Source of the DNA: Rosistilla ulvae
GTDB lineage: Bacteria; Planctomycetota; Planctomycetia; Pirellulales; Pirellulaceae
Direction of reading: 5' to 3'
Length of the DNA stretch: 64,000 nt
Assembly: GCF_007741475.1 (NCBI RefSeq)
Contig: NZ_CP036261.1
Coordinates: 6,015,798-6,079,797, forward strand
Translations under genes and position numbers: made by a program
Shown: one piece after another, positions 14,361 to 18,818 of the stretch
How positions within the stretch are numbered: the stretch's first letter is position 1
How the letters are laid out: every line of letters begins with the position of its first letter
Notes under the pieces: model-generated
What the model was told of the DNA's origin: nothing
Seen by the model: only the letters and a program-made list of their open reading frames with translations
The model's database searches: none

Positions 14361-14454
14361 GCCGCATCCCCGCCGCATCCCCGCCGCATCCCCGCCGCAT
14401 CCCCGCCGCATCCCCGCCGCATCCCCGCCGCATCCCCGCCGCATCCCCGCCGCA
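14361..14454. repeat. 11-bp tandem repeat (minisatellite)
   Basis: Eight perfect head-to-tail copies of GCCGCATCCCC from 14361 to 14448 plus a partial ninth. Lies just after the zinc-finger-like membrane protein gene. The lack of divergence between copies suggests recent or ongoing slippage. Confidence 0.95.
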
Positions 14455-14850: not shown

Positions 14851-14878
14851 TTGACATCGATGGGCCGAACGGTAGGAT
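14851..14878 (+). promoter_or_regulatory. Candidate sigma-70-type promoter for nrdJ
   Basis: TTGACA at 14851-14856 and TAGGAT at 14873-14878 with a 16-base spacer. It would give an nrdJ transcript with a leader of about 255 bases containing the hairpin at 14895 and the junction element at 15059. Based on consensus likeness only. Confidence 0.35.
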
Positions 14879-14894
14879 AAGTGGAGATCAACAT

Positions 14895-14924
14895 GTAGTG
14901 CCCGTCGCAACCGGCGAGCACTAC
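14895..14924 (+). other. Leader hairpin upstream of nrdJ
   Basis: GTAGTGC (14895-14901) pairs with GCACTAC (14918-14924); inside, TCGC pairs with GCGA across AACCG after a CCG bulge. Perfect outer stem of 7 bp. It falls within the putative nrdJ leader transcript or, if transcription starts later, is an operator-like palindrome. Confidence 0.45.
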
Positions 14925-15058
14925 GGGTAGTACCCGGCGATTGCTAGCGATTCTTGTGTTTTTCTAACGGCTGACGTGGATATGAGATCATAACGCAGCC
15001 AACAACACGCTCGCAGACCGGTAATTGATCGACAGCTTTACGACTATTTCTAGATTAC

Positions 15059-15112
15059 GGACTCACCCCTGACGCTGGGAAGCGTGTATCGCAAGATGCT
15101 AGGAGTGAGTCC
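15059..15112 (+). ncRNA. Candidate cis-regulatory RNA, three-way junction upstream of nrdJ
   Basis: P1 pairs GGACTCACCCCT (15059-15070) with AGGAGTGAGTCC (15101-15112), 11 of 12 positions. P2 is ACGCT-GGGA-AGCGT (15072-15085). P3 is GTATC-GCAA-GATGC (15086-15099), including one G-U pair. P2 and P3 abut without unpaired bases and both are capped by GNRA tetraloops; only one base separates each from P1. It ends 30 bases before the nrdJ ATG and just before the GAGGGAG ribosome site. It shows no cobalamin-riboswitch hallmarks that I can see. An nrdJ-associated RNA motif has, to my recollection, been proposed from comparative genomics; I cannot test identity. Confidence 0.6.
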
Positions 15113-15142
15113 CACGGATGAAAACGAGGGAGTTTCTGACCT

Positions 15143-18100
15143 ATGGCAATTGCGCCCACCTGTCCAACCAATGCCACGCAACATGGCATCGATCACGCCC
15201 GCGCTAAGTTTTCCTCCGCTGGACGCAGTAGCGTCGTGGGGTTGAAAATCGATTCGGAGTTCTGCCCAACCGATGTCGACAGTCCGTTCGACACCAGCGA
15301 ATGGGTGCTCCGTAGCGCGGCGATCAAAGATGAAACGGGCACTGCGCTGTTCGAACAACACGACTGCGAAGTTCCCGCTAAATGGAGCCAACTGGCGACC
15401 AACGTCGTCGTCAGCAAGTATTTTTATGGCGACCCGAAGAAGGCCGAACGCGAAACCAGCGTTCGCCAATTGATCCACCGCGTCACCCGCACGATCTCCG
15501 ACTGGGGATTGGCCGATGGCTACTTCGACACCGCCGAAGATGGTGAAAATTTCTATCGCGATCTGACCTGGTTGTGCCTGCACCAACACGGTGCTTTCAA
15601 CAGCCCGGTTTGGTTTAACGTCGGTCTGTACGACCAATACGGCGTGACCGGCGCGAAGTGCAACTGGCACTACGACAAGACACAAGGCCGCGTCGACCAA
15701 CCCGAGAACCCCTACGAATTTCCTCAGGGCTCGGCATGCTTCATCCAGAAGGTTGAAGACAACATGGAAGACATCATGCGTCTGGCGACAAGCGAGGCGA
15801 TGTTGTTCAAGTTTGGCAGCGGCACCGGCACCGACCTATCGAGCATCCGCAGCGAGCGAGAGAACCTGTCGGGCGGCGGCAACCCATCGGGCCCGCTGTC
15901 GTTCATGCGTGTCTACGATCAGATCGCGGCGGTTGTTAAGAGCGGTGGCAAGACGCGTCGCGCCGCGAAGATGCAGTCCTTAAAGGTATGGCATCCCGAT
16001 ATCTTGGAATTCATCGAGTGCAAGTGGAGCGAAGAGCGGAAGGCTCACGCGCTGATCCAACAAGGTTACGACAGCAACTTCAACGGCGAAGCCTATTCGT
16101 CGGTGATGTTCCAAAACGCGAACCTTTCGGTCCGCGTGACCGATGATTACATGAAAGCGGTTCGCGACGGCAAGCGTTGGCAAACGCAGTGGATCAGCGA
16201 AAAAGCGACCGGCACGCCGCCGGAATACGACGCTCGCGAACTGTTGAACAAGATGGCCGAATGCGCATGGCACTGCGGCGATCCTGGCGTTCAATACGAC
16301 ACCACGATCAACACCTGGCACACCTGCCCCAACAGCGGCCGGATCAACGCCAGCAACCCTTGTTCGGAATACATGTTCCTGGACGACACGGCTTGCAACC
16401 TGGCGTCGATCAACCTGATGAAGTTCCGCCGCGCCGACGGCAGCTTCGACGTCGATCGCTTCCACGCCGCCTGCCGCGTCTTCTTCATCGCTCAAGAGAT
16501 CCTTGTCGATCACGCCAGCTATCCAACCGCCGACATCGCGCTGAACAGCCACAACTATCGCCCGTTGGGTCTGGGATATTCGAACCTCGGTTCGTTGGTA
16601 ATGACCAGCGGCCTGCCTTACGATTCCGACGGAGCTCGCGGATTGTGCGGCAGCCTGACCGCACTAATGCACGGATCGGCTAACCTGACAAGCGCCGAGA
16701 TGGCGGGTGTTGTCGGACCGTTTGAAGGCTTTGCCAACAATCGCGAACCGATGCTGAACGTCATGGGGATGCACCGCGATGCCGTCGAAGATATTAACGA
16801 CGAAGGGCCTGAATACCTCAAGGATGCAGCTCGCAACCTGTGGGACAAGGTCATCGAACTGGGCAACCGCTACGGATTCCGCAACGCTCAAGCGACCGTG
16901 CTGGCACCAACCGGAACGATCAGTTTCTTGATGGACTGCGACACCACGGGCGTCGAGCCAGATATCGCGCTTGTCAAATACAAGCAACTGGCTGGCGGCG
17001 GGATGCTGAAGATCGTCAACCGCGGCGTCGAAGGAGCTTTGGAATCGCTCGGTTACGACACGACGCAAGCCAAAGAAATCGTCGCCTACATCGACGAACA
17101 CGACACGATCGAAGGTGCCCCGCATCTTTCCGACGAGCATCTGCCCGTCTTCGATTGTGCGTTTACGCCCGCCGGTGGAACGCGCAGTATCGCTTGGCAA
17201 GCCCACGTGACGATGATGGCTGCGGCTCAACCGTTCCTGTCGGGTGCGATCAGCAAGACGGTCAACATGCCGACCGATTCGACTCCTCAAGATATCGCCG
17301 ACGCGTACTTCTGGGGCTGGGAACTGGGACTTAAAGCGATCGCGATCTATCGCGATGGTTCGAAGCAGAGCCAGCCGCTGAACACCAAGAGCGGTGAGAA
17401 GACCGCGGCGGATGCGGAAGTCAAGGTTGTCGAGAAGGTAGTCTATCGCCCACGCCGCGAACGCTTGGAAGATACCCGCCACAGCTTGACCCACAAGTTC
17501 AACATCGCGGGACACGAAGGCTATATCAACGTCGGCCTATACCCCGACGGTCGCCCTGGCGAAGTCTTCATCACGATGGCGAAAGAGGGATCGACGATCG
17601 GCGGTCTGATGGACAGCTTCGGCACCTCGACTTCGATCGCGCTGCAATACGGCGTTCCGATCGAGGTCTTGGTCAACAAGTTCACTCACACCCGCTTCGA
17701 ACCGATGGGGCATACCAGCAACCCTGACATTCGAATCGCCAAGAGTATCGTCGATTACATCTTCCGTTGGATGGGAATCACCTTCCTGGCCGGATATCGT
17801 GAAGCGACAGTACCGGGTGCGGCGGAGAAGAGCGACAGTGGAGCTTCGATCGAAACGAAGTCGCCCACCAGCGAAGCTGCTTCGAAAGAATCCGGCAACG
17901 GCGAAGAGATGAAGCTCGGCGGCAACGGACCAACGACCGAAACCCACGACACCGCGGCGAAATTCACCGTTGGGAACCTGCCCACCGTGAACATCGACGC
18001 CCTGGAACGGGCTGGTGTTTCGATGCAGATCTCGGCAGACGGGACGGGGGAAAACGGCAAGCCTGGTTCGCGAAGCGATCAATTCGCTCGCTTCCAAAGC

Positions 18101-18196
18101 GATGCACCGGCCTGCGATAACTGCGGCAGCATCACCGTTCGCAACGGTAACTGTTACCTGTGCCACAACTGTGGTGCCAGCATGGGCTGCAGCTAA
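15143..18196 (+). CDS. nrdJ: Adenosylcobalamin-dependent ribonucleotide reductase, class II
   Basis: 1017 residues; reduces ribonucleotides to deoxyribonucleotides using a B12-derived radical. Visible catalytic features: Cys199 in QGSACF and Cys418 in DTACNL as the redox pair, the NPCSE motif (N405, C407 radical Cys, E409), ASINL, and the nucleotide-binding APTGTISFLMDCDTTGVEPD. A variable linker of about 100 residues near 890-990 leads to a C-terminal zinc-ribbon CDNCG...CYLCHNCG ending in CS, presumably the tail that re-reduces the active site. GAGGGAG lies upstream of ATG. A strong terminator follows. A structured RNA candidate lies directly upstream. Confidence 0.96.
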   Translation: MAIAPTCPTNATQHGIDHARAKFSSAGRSSVVGLKIDSEFCPTDVDSPFDTSEWVLRSAAIKDETGTALFEQHDCEVPAKWSQLATNVVVSKYFYGDPKKAERETSVRQLIHRVTRTISDWGLADGYFDTAEDGENFYRDLTWLCLHQHGAFNSPVWFNVGLYDQYGVTGAKCNWHYDKTQGRVDQPENPYEFPQGSACFIQKVEDNMEDIMRLATSEAMLFKFGSGTGTDLSSIRSERENLSGGGNPSGPLSFMRVYDQIAAVVKSGGKTRRAAKMQSLKVWHPDILEFIECKWSEERKAHALIQQGYDSNFNGEAYSSVMFQNANLSVRVTDDYMKAVRDGKRWQTQWISEKATGTPPEYDARELLNKMAECAWHCGDPGVQYDTTINTWHTCPNSGRINASNPCSEYMFLDDTACNLASINLMKFRRADGSFDVDRFHAACRVFFIAQEILVDHASYPTADIALNSHNYRPLGLGYSNLGSLVMTSGLPYDSDGARGLCGSLTALMHGSANLTSAEMAGVVGPFEGFANNREPMLNVMGMHRDAVEDINDEGPEYLKDAARNLWDKVIELGNRYGFRNAQATVLAPTGTISFLMDCDTTGVEPDIALVKYKQLAGGGMLKIVNRGVEGALESLGYDTTQAKEIVAYIDEHDTIEGAPHLSDEHLPVFDCAFTPAGGTRSIAWQAHVTMMAAAQPFLSGAISKTVNMPTDSTPQDIADAYFWGWELGLKAIAIYRDGSKQSQPLNTKSGEKTAADAEVKVVEKVVYRPRRERLEDTRHSLTHKFNIAGHEGYINVGLYPDGRPGEVFITMAKEGSTIGGLMDSFGTSTSIALQYGVPIEVLVNKFTHTRFEPMGHTSNPDIRIAKSIVDYIFRWMGITFLAGYREATVPGAAEKSDSGASIETKSPTSEAASKESGNGEEMKLGGNGPTTETHDTAAKFTVGNLPTVNIDALERAGVSMQISADGTGENGKPGSRSDQFARFQSDAPACDNCGSITVRNGNCYLCHNCGASMGCS

Positions 18197-18302: not shown

Positions 18303-18338
18303 GACCACCGCTTGCCCCTTTTGCTCGAGACCGATCGC

Positions 18339-18818
18339 GTGTCATTGACTGCTGTTGTTGCTGCCACTCCCACCGGGACGATCGGTCTGGATAACGATAT
18401 GCCGTGGCAACTGAGTCACGATCTGCGGCGTTTCAAGCGTTTGACGATGGGCAGCATTCTGATCATGGGGCGGAAGACGTTTGATTCGATCGGACGCCCG
18501 CTGCCCGGGCGAACGACGTTTGTCTTGACCCGCGACCAGTCGTGGTCGCATCCCGGCGTCGAAGCTTTCACCGATCCCGACGCGATGCTTGCGGCGGCTG
18601 GCGATCGCTCGGCCTACGTTGTCGGCGGTGCTCAAATCTACACGGCGATGATGCCGGCCTGCGACCATCTGTACCTGACGCGCGTCTGGAGCCAGGTCGT
18701 CGGAGACACGAATATCGAGATCGATCTTCACGATTGGCGATGCCGTTTTGTGGAACGCATCCCCGCCGGTTCGCGCGACAGCATTCCCAGCGAATTCAGC
18801 GTCTGGGACCGAGCCTAA
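18339..18818 (+). CDS. folA: Dihydrofolate reductase
   Basis: 159 residues, standard length. It catalyses NADPH reduction of dihydrofolate to tetrahydrofolate. Motifs: ATPTGTIGLDNDMPWQLSHDLRRFK (Met20-loop region with conserved Asp-Met-Pro-Trp and acidic active-site partner), MGRKTFDSIGRPLPGRTTFVLTR and YVVGGAQIYTAMMPACDHLYLTRV. The GTG at 18339 is preferred because it aligns with the short family N-terminus (VSLTAVVAA); TTG at 18312 is an alternative. Sits just after the nrdJ terminator, so the two dNTP-supply genes are adjacent but separately terminated. Confidence 0.94.
   Translation: MSLTAVVAATPTGTIGLDNDMPWQLSHDLRRFKRLTMGSILIMGRKTFDSIGRPLPGRTTFVLTRDQSWSHPGVEAFTDPDAMLAAAGDRSAYVVGGAQIYTAMMPACDHLYLTRVWSQVVGDTNIEIDLHDWRCRFVERIPAGSRDSIPSEFSVWDRA

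Follow-up and report, generated by a model that had tools for sequence, protein, structure and literature searches.

Genes and promoter at the nrdJ locus

The window analysed here is a stretch of 64,000 nt from the genome of Rosistilla ulvae. On its forward strand it carries nrdJ, identified beforehand from the letters alone and confirmed as such by NCBIfam model NF005122 ("vitamin B12-dependent ribonucleotide reductase"; 1410 bits, cut-off 859) and by matches of its product to PF08471 and PF02867. A chromosomal dihydrofolate reductase gene (18312–18818; PF00186, 154 bits) follows directly 3′ of nrdJ on the same strand, making these two nucleotide-precursor genes neighbours. In window coordinates, the region consists of the following features:

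14851–14878, + strand: probable nrdJ promoter, −35 TTGACA, 16-nt spacer, −10 TAGGAT (14873–14878); 10 of 12 consensus letters, kept in the genus
14886–14901, + strand: NrdR-like box 1 (GATCAACATGTAGTGC); 10 of 16 letters of the consensus
14918–14933, + strand: NrdR-like box 2 (GCACTACGGGTAGTAC), 32 nt from box 1; core ACTAn4TAGT
15059–15066, + strand: outer stem P1, 5′ strand, pairing with 15105–15112; predicted fold, 5 of 5 helix-1 pairs changing on both sides in 37 distinct leaders
15067/15104, + strand: mismatch between P1 and P2; predicted fold
15068–15071, + strand: inner stem P2, 5′ strand, pairing with 15100–15103; predicted fold, two-sided changes in 5 of 5 pairs in 13 leaders from outside the genus
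15072–15085, + strand: hairpin P3 with loop GGGA (15077–15080); predicted fold, covariation, loop GGA in relatives
15086–15099, + strand: hairpin P4, GUAUC-GCAA-GAUGC, with loop GCAA (15091–15094); predicted fold, 3 of 3 genomes of the genus
15100–15112, + strand: 3′ strands of P2 (15100–15103) and P1 (15105–15112); predicted fold and covariation
15113–15121, + strand: linker motif CACGGAUGA with GGA at 15116–15118, putative CsrA site; CANGGAYGA in 39 of 39 aligned leaders
15126–15132, + strand: Shine-Dalgarno region GAGGGAG with GGA at 15129–15131, second putative CsrA site; GGAGT 3′ of the linker in 39 of 39
15143–18196, + strand: nrdJ, vitamin B12-dependent (class II) ribonucleotide reductase, 1017 amino acids; NCBIfam and Pfam

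The promoter is conserved in all three genomes of the window's genus, and a TTGAC(A/T/G)-16-TAnnnT promoter occupies the same position in 39 of 39 aligned nrdJ leaders (counted without a shuffle control), with exactly TTGACA as the −35 element in 35 of them. The box core ACTAn4TAGT lies 3′ of this promoter in all 39 leaders, 118–237 nt upstream of the stem. Against the NrdR-box consensus, only some of the rows score at least 10 of 16 letters in both boxes; the window does so in box 1 alone. The genome has an nrdR gene at one locus (PF22811, 70.3 bits). Judged by its sequence, the upstream region looks like an NrdR-controlled promoter at which NrdR would bind. It shares with the promoters of NrdR regulons the paired ACTAn4TAGT-type boxes 32 nt apart, just 3′ of a sigma-70 promoter, and the presence of nrdR; it differs in that NrdR acts on transcription, whereas the RNA element described below is separate. 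NrdR boxes respond to dATP/ATP.

The predicted transcript start lies near 14885; the leader would then measure about 258 nt, and the element would stand at its 3′ end. Transcription from a weaker promoter-like site, seen at 15029–15056, would start inside P1. As the main promoter this site was set aside, since 14851–14878 is conserved in 39 of 39 leaders, and as the only start it is argued against because the P1 pairs covary. A transcript beginning downstream of 15059, which the original prediction had named as incompatible with a role for the element, looks unlikely because all 39 related leaders have a promoter well upstream, but the weaker site of the window would give a start inside P1.

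Two further observations concern this region. Some 400 nt before the predicted nrdJ promoter, at 14361–14454, the 11-mer GCCGCATCCCC forms a perfect tandem repeat of 8.5 units. Halfway along the leader, the three genomes of the genus agree in every letter of GACGTGGATATGAGATCATA (14973–14992), despite variable flanks.

A compact structured element next to the ribosome site

The 54 nt from 15059 to 15112 fold with a minimum free energy (MFE) of −28.3 kcal/mol (ensemble frequency 0.76, z −5.3), and none of 200 shuffles did as well. The fold proposed beforehand, a 12-position stem with one mismatch enclosing two 5-bp hairpins with GGGA and GCAA loops, is thus borne out, as is the interval of 30 nt between the element and the start codon at 15143. 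The P3 loop has an alternative form, the hexaloop UGGGAA, if its closing U-A pair opens.

The conserved unit runs past 15112 into CACGGAUGA (15113–15121) and then the Shine-Dalgarno sequence. In the window, the latter is predicted to sit in a hexaloop hairpin, AAAC-GAGGGA-GUUU; the tails of the two congeners are not predicted to fold identically. The genome (7.48 Mb) holds one full match to the element, the nine others being fragments of 14–18 nt with E-values of 1.35 or worse, and this single full copy rules out a mobile or dispersed repeat. Searches with the Rfam 15 covariance models at gathering score gave no match in the window and none in six related loci, which rules out a known RNA family; three Rfam hits appeared in 14900–15200 when E-values up to 10 were allowed, none of them a riboswitch.

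Conservation and covariation

All three analysed genomes of the window's genus contain the element, and from the element through to the ATG they share 96% column identity, vs 88% for the whole leader from about 14845. Differences within the element comprise one compensatory change in P2 (U-A to A-U), two pairing-preserving changes in P4 (U-G to C-G and U-A to U-G) and two changes that break outer P1 pairs.

We fetched 80 nrdJ loci from relatives and aligned 13 leaders from outside the window's genus. Two-sided changes were present in 5 of 5 P2 pairs, P3 was invariant, 98.3% of cells paired, and the covariation score was 0.409 compared with at most 0.113 for slid controls. The first covariance model was built from these 13 leaders, none of them from the window's genus. 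The search covered 59 sources: the window, L089, L090 and 56 nrdJ loci drawn from the 80 named ones. In it, this genus-free model found the window element with 28.1 bits and an E-value of 2.8e-4; the two congeners scored 28.8 and 22.2 bits.

Applied to 199 genomes of the family with E-values up to 0.1, the genus-free model yielded 40 matches in 39 genomes. Thirty-seven of these lie just 5′ of nrdJ, in 37 genomes and 10 of 68 genera, including L159, whose nrdJ aligns from residue 387 onwards and was given an extrapolated start. The three matches away from nrdJ are the weakest of the 40 (E-values 0.059–0.074). The genus member G002 was missed under a stricter filter; its element was found by DNA comparison.

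For the larger alignment of 39 matches (37 distinct), we omitted L146 and L150, which belong to the same species group as L074/L149, and the non-nrdJ matches L160–L162. Aligning homologous leaders had been suggested as the check on the element, and compensatory changes were indeed found: 15 of 16 pairs show two-sided changes among the 37 distinct leaders, and 90.0% of 531 cells pair. The covariation score was 0.564, whereas shuffled controls averaged 0.193 and slid controls reached 0.098 at most; it comes from a model-fitted alignment that leans towards structure. As originally predicted, a structured RNA lies immediately 5′ of nrdJ; it is conserved in part of the Pirellulaceae, with 37 of 40 model matches at nrdJ. 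As an RNA family it is new, having no entry in Rfam 15, and an alignment for it is ready.

Outside the family, a second model made from all 39 rows turned up no convincing match at nrdJ when 246 genomes of the order and 246 of the phylum were searched under strict filters. Non-family matches in the order (L215–L217) and the phylum (L218, L219) are without nrdJ by tblastn, and a phylum-wide feature is therefore out.

Family-wide core and genus-specific form

The family-wide core consists of P1, an internal loop, a 5′-side stack of P2 and P3, and an unpaired 3′ bulge. P4, and hence the three-way junction, was found only in the window's genus, where it replaces the bulge of the relatives. The original prediction had seen the essence of the element in a three-way junction with two GNRA caps. 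This did not hold: in relatives a single stem carries a cap and a 3′ bulge, and GGA, not a GNRA tetraloop, is what the loop preserves.

By MFE folding, a GGA lies in the hairpin loop of 29 of 37 distinct leaders and is the commonest trinucleotide in those loops. It is absent in three leaders (L152, L155 and L156), and in five (L132, L135, L138, L140 and L158) the computed fold chose another pairing and did not place it. The loop letters vary (GAGGAUU, GAGGACC, UAGGAAU, AAGGAAA, ACGGAAA, UGGGAA), and with them the GGA contexts (AAGGA, UAGGA, GAGGA, ACGGA, UGGGA).

Directly 3′ of P1, all 39 aligned leaders have the linker CANGGAYGA. GGAGT, containing the Shine-Dalgarno GGA, follows 8–14 nt later in 39 of 39, and any Shine-Dalgarno sequence tends to contain GGA. 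An upstream reading frame from the AUG within GGAUGA was ruled out, as relatives have GGACGA. We also rejected a pairing of the linker GGAY with GUCU beside the Shine-Dalgarno sequence, suggested by RNAalifold: 52 of 52 cells pair, with zero two-sided changes and shuffles doing equally well.

GGA sites outlast the stem

A motif-independent set was assembled from nrdJ leaders of genomes lacking a model match, picked by genus. Twenty-five genomes were queried; G196 and G125 gave no nrdJ match, and the start of L238 was unreadable. In the genus g36, the linker is kept in 11 of 11 readable leaders, each with at least two ANGGA, at weak model scores of 15.6–24.4 bits. The g45 leader is remodelled and has two CAAGGATG sites in 5 of 5 leaders. 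None of seven other genera lacking a model match has the linker, one being unreadable. Where the stem has changed (g36, g45), the GGA motifs are retained. The sequence sites thus outlive the stem, as a GGA-reading protein would lead one to expect. When ANGGA is counted by group and compared with shuffles, the result is partly circular, two groups having been picked by the GGAYGA anchor.

A remodelled nrdJ leader was also noted in a sister group (L009, L012, L014, L015, L226, L228, L231, L233 and L234), in which, read by eye, two CAAGGATG sites lie in a GAAAGA...TCTTTC stem immediately before the Shine-Dalgarno sequence.

The leader as a candidate CsrA target

A paper on CsrA (PMC7652899) gives RUACARGGAUGU as the SELEX consensus, with GGA in hairpin loops, and describes a dimer that bridges two sites over 10–63 nt. 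In the Escherichia coli glgC leader, it places one CsrA site over the Shine-Dalgarno sequence and another in the loop of a hairpin shortly before it. The GGA spacings of the window lie within the bridging range: 10 nt from linker to Shine-Dalgarno, 35 nt from loop to linker and 48 nt from loop to Shine-Dalgarno. Across leaders, the linker lies 8–14 nt from the Shine-Dalgarno sequence, and in 6 of 39 the distance is 8–9 nt, under the reported 10. The linker CANGGAYGA (39 of 39) and the double CAAGGATG of g45 both resemble sites of the RUACARGGAUGU/ANGGA type. The three GGA motifs of the leader are unable to pair with one another, and their contexts vary.

From these features, we propose the nrdJ leader element as a candidate CsrA docking platform, a reading to which we give about even weight and in which CsrA binding is deduced from the motifs. 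The stem would present one GGA in its hairpin loop, a single-stranded ANGGAYG would lie between stem and ribosome site, and the Shine-Dalgarno sequence itself would offer a third GGA. A CsrA dimer could be captured at one of the upstream GGA motifs and then bridge to that of the Shine-Dalgarno sequence. Bridged CsrA would block ribosomes and lower NrdJ synthesis until titrated away, as at E. coli glgC; repression is thus the sign of the effect that we infer. Transcription would be set separately, by the upstream promoter overlapping the NrdR boxes, so that, in our reading, NrdR would control the transcription and CsrA the translation of nrdJ. If this is true, the global regulator CsrA governs translation of an essential DNA-synthesis enzyme in planctomycetes, atop transcription control by NrdR. 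Our literature search, with mostly open-access coverage, found no publication on this leader element, on a ribonucleotide reductase or nrdJ under the control of CsrA, or on CsrA targets in planctomycetes.

With E. coli glgC as described in PMC7652899, the nrdJ leader shares a spacing in the bridging range between two GGA motifs, one in a nearby upstream hairpin loop and the other over the Shine-Dalgarno sequence. As a putative CsrA target, the nrdJ leader differs in gene and phylum, in its extra near-consensus linker site and long covarying outer stem, and in that the loop context is often GAGGA, not ANGGA.

There are four copies of csrA in the genome. One of them encodes a protein that aligns to solved CsrA structures at 7e-14 and retains R44. 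Although csrA is a prerequisite for this reading, co-occurrence with it fails to discriminate as a test, the gene being present in 199 of 199 family genomes. Two of the copies (G000:C1:1744169-1744309, L093, and 2492451-2492591, L094) have long C-terminal extensions, with open frames of 137 and 149 amino acids vs 77 and 101 for the other two.

We compared motif counts with 362 sampled leaders of this genome, whose starts were called by script. At least three ANGGA occur in only two of them, nrdJ included; with five or more GGA, 17 reach the count of nrdJ, so the total is not extreme. In 16 leaders with the element, total GGA is mildly high (2.69 vs 2.08 expected). CANGGAYG occurs in nine of the 362, mostly close to the called start in the leaders other than nrdJ, and from this motif alone there was no sign of a wider regulon among these leaders. 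The family pattern CANGGAYGAN{2,20}GGAGTYT, which occurs in 141 of 199 genomes and mostly elsewhere among the matches listed, was not used as evidence.

Several features fit CsrA less well. The loops range from GGGA to 11 nt; few are the preferred ANGGAN hexaloop and most are not, the loop of the window being one that could open to a hexaloop. Several loop stems have 5–6 bp, where the SELEX hairpins mostly had four or fewer. The long covarying stem exceeds what CsrA needs, and the linker GGAY can pair with GUCU beside the Shine-Dalgarno sequence, without covariation.

Alternative explanations

A long covarying outer stem in a compact structure adjoining the ribosome site of a metabolic gene could also belong to an undescribed riboswitch, gating the nearby Shine-Dalgarno sequence upon binding dNTPs, a form of cobalamin or another signal. 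A cobalamin riboswitch lies upstream of class II ribonucleotide reductase genes in Streptomyces and is likewise a structured leader of a B12-dependent enzyme gene; the nrdJ leader differs from it in having no Rfam match at gathering score in the window and no riboswitch match up to E 10 in 14900–15200. This agrees with the earlier view that the element does not look like a cobalamin riboswitch, and the class would have to be new. Sensing of dNTPs or cobalamin, which had also been suggested, found no support, nothing pointing to such a pocket; we regard the element as more like a CsrA site than a small-molecule sensor because three GGA motifs fit a CsrA-type protein better. Outside the helices, the 39 leaders keep only CA-N-GGA-Y-GA and the Shine-Dalgarno sequence, with no larger core. 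The three-way junction is genus-specific, the linker persists at weak model matches (15.6–24.4 bits), and the consensus fold has no covarying alternative pairing of the Shine-Dalgarno sequence. On balance, a riboswitch appears unlikely.

We hold an equally low opinion of a ribosome standby site or enhancer, in which the stem would keep the 3′ leader open and GGAYGA/AGGA would make accessory anti-Shine-Dalgarno contacts that raise initiation. The GGA motifs do resemble Shine-Dalgarno sequences, and the linker lies 8–14 nt upstream of the true one and persists without the stem. A standby site, however, has no need of a loop GGA held by covarying arms, and the linker keeps CA-N-GGA-Y-GA exactly, with no drift among Shine-Dalgarno-like words.

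A further reading, which we also think unlikely, takes the stem to be more than a holder for CsrA and the stem-loop with its invariant CANGGAYGA to be a new metabolite- or protein-sensing class of leader for B12-dependent ribonucleotide reductases; a dNTP or cobalamin switch competing with CsrA for the Shine-Dalgarno region may be an example. If this were true, DNA-precursor supply would be read twice, by NrdR at the promoter and again on the mRNA.

Slightly less probable is recognition of the element by another protein, or a role as a 5′ structure that stabilises the mRNA and sets its lifetime. Any RNA-binding protein that prefers GGA would give the same pattern, and stems alone can slow decay; set against this, among bacterial proteins that read GGA in hairpin loops CsrA is the best known (PMC7652899), and it is present. 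An inverted repeat without RNA function, formed at the DNA level or by chance, is very improbable and already nearly refuted: the single copy per genome and the promoter-like site at 15029–15056 starting inside the first stem would suit it, but covariation in 37 distinct leaders is far above slid controls and 37 of 40 matches lie at nrdJ.

Other planctomycete nrdJ leaders (L060, L063, L066, L068, L070 and L083) are without the element; what they share is a palindrome resembling TGTACnnnnGTACA and, 3′ of it, a word resembling GGATGCCC about 40–60 nt ahead of the start.
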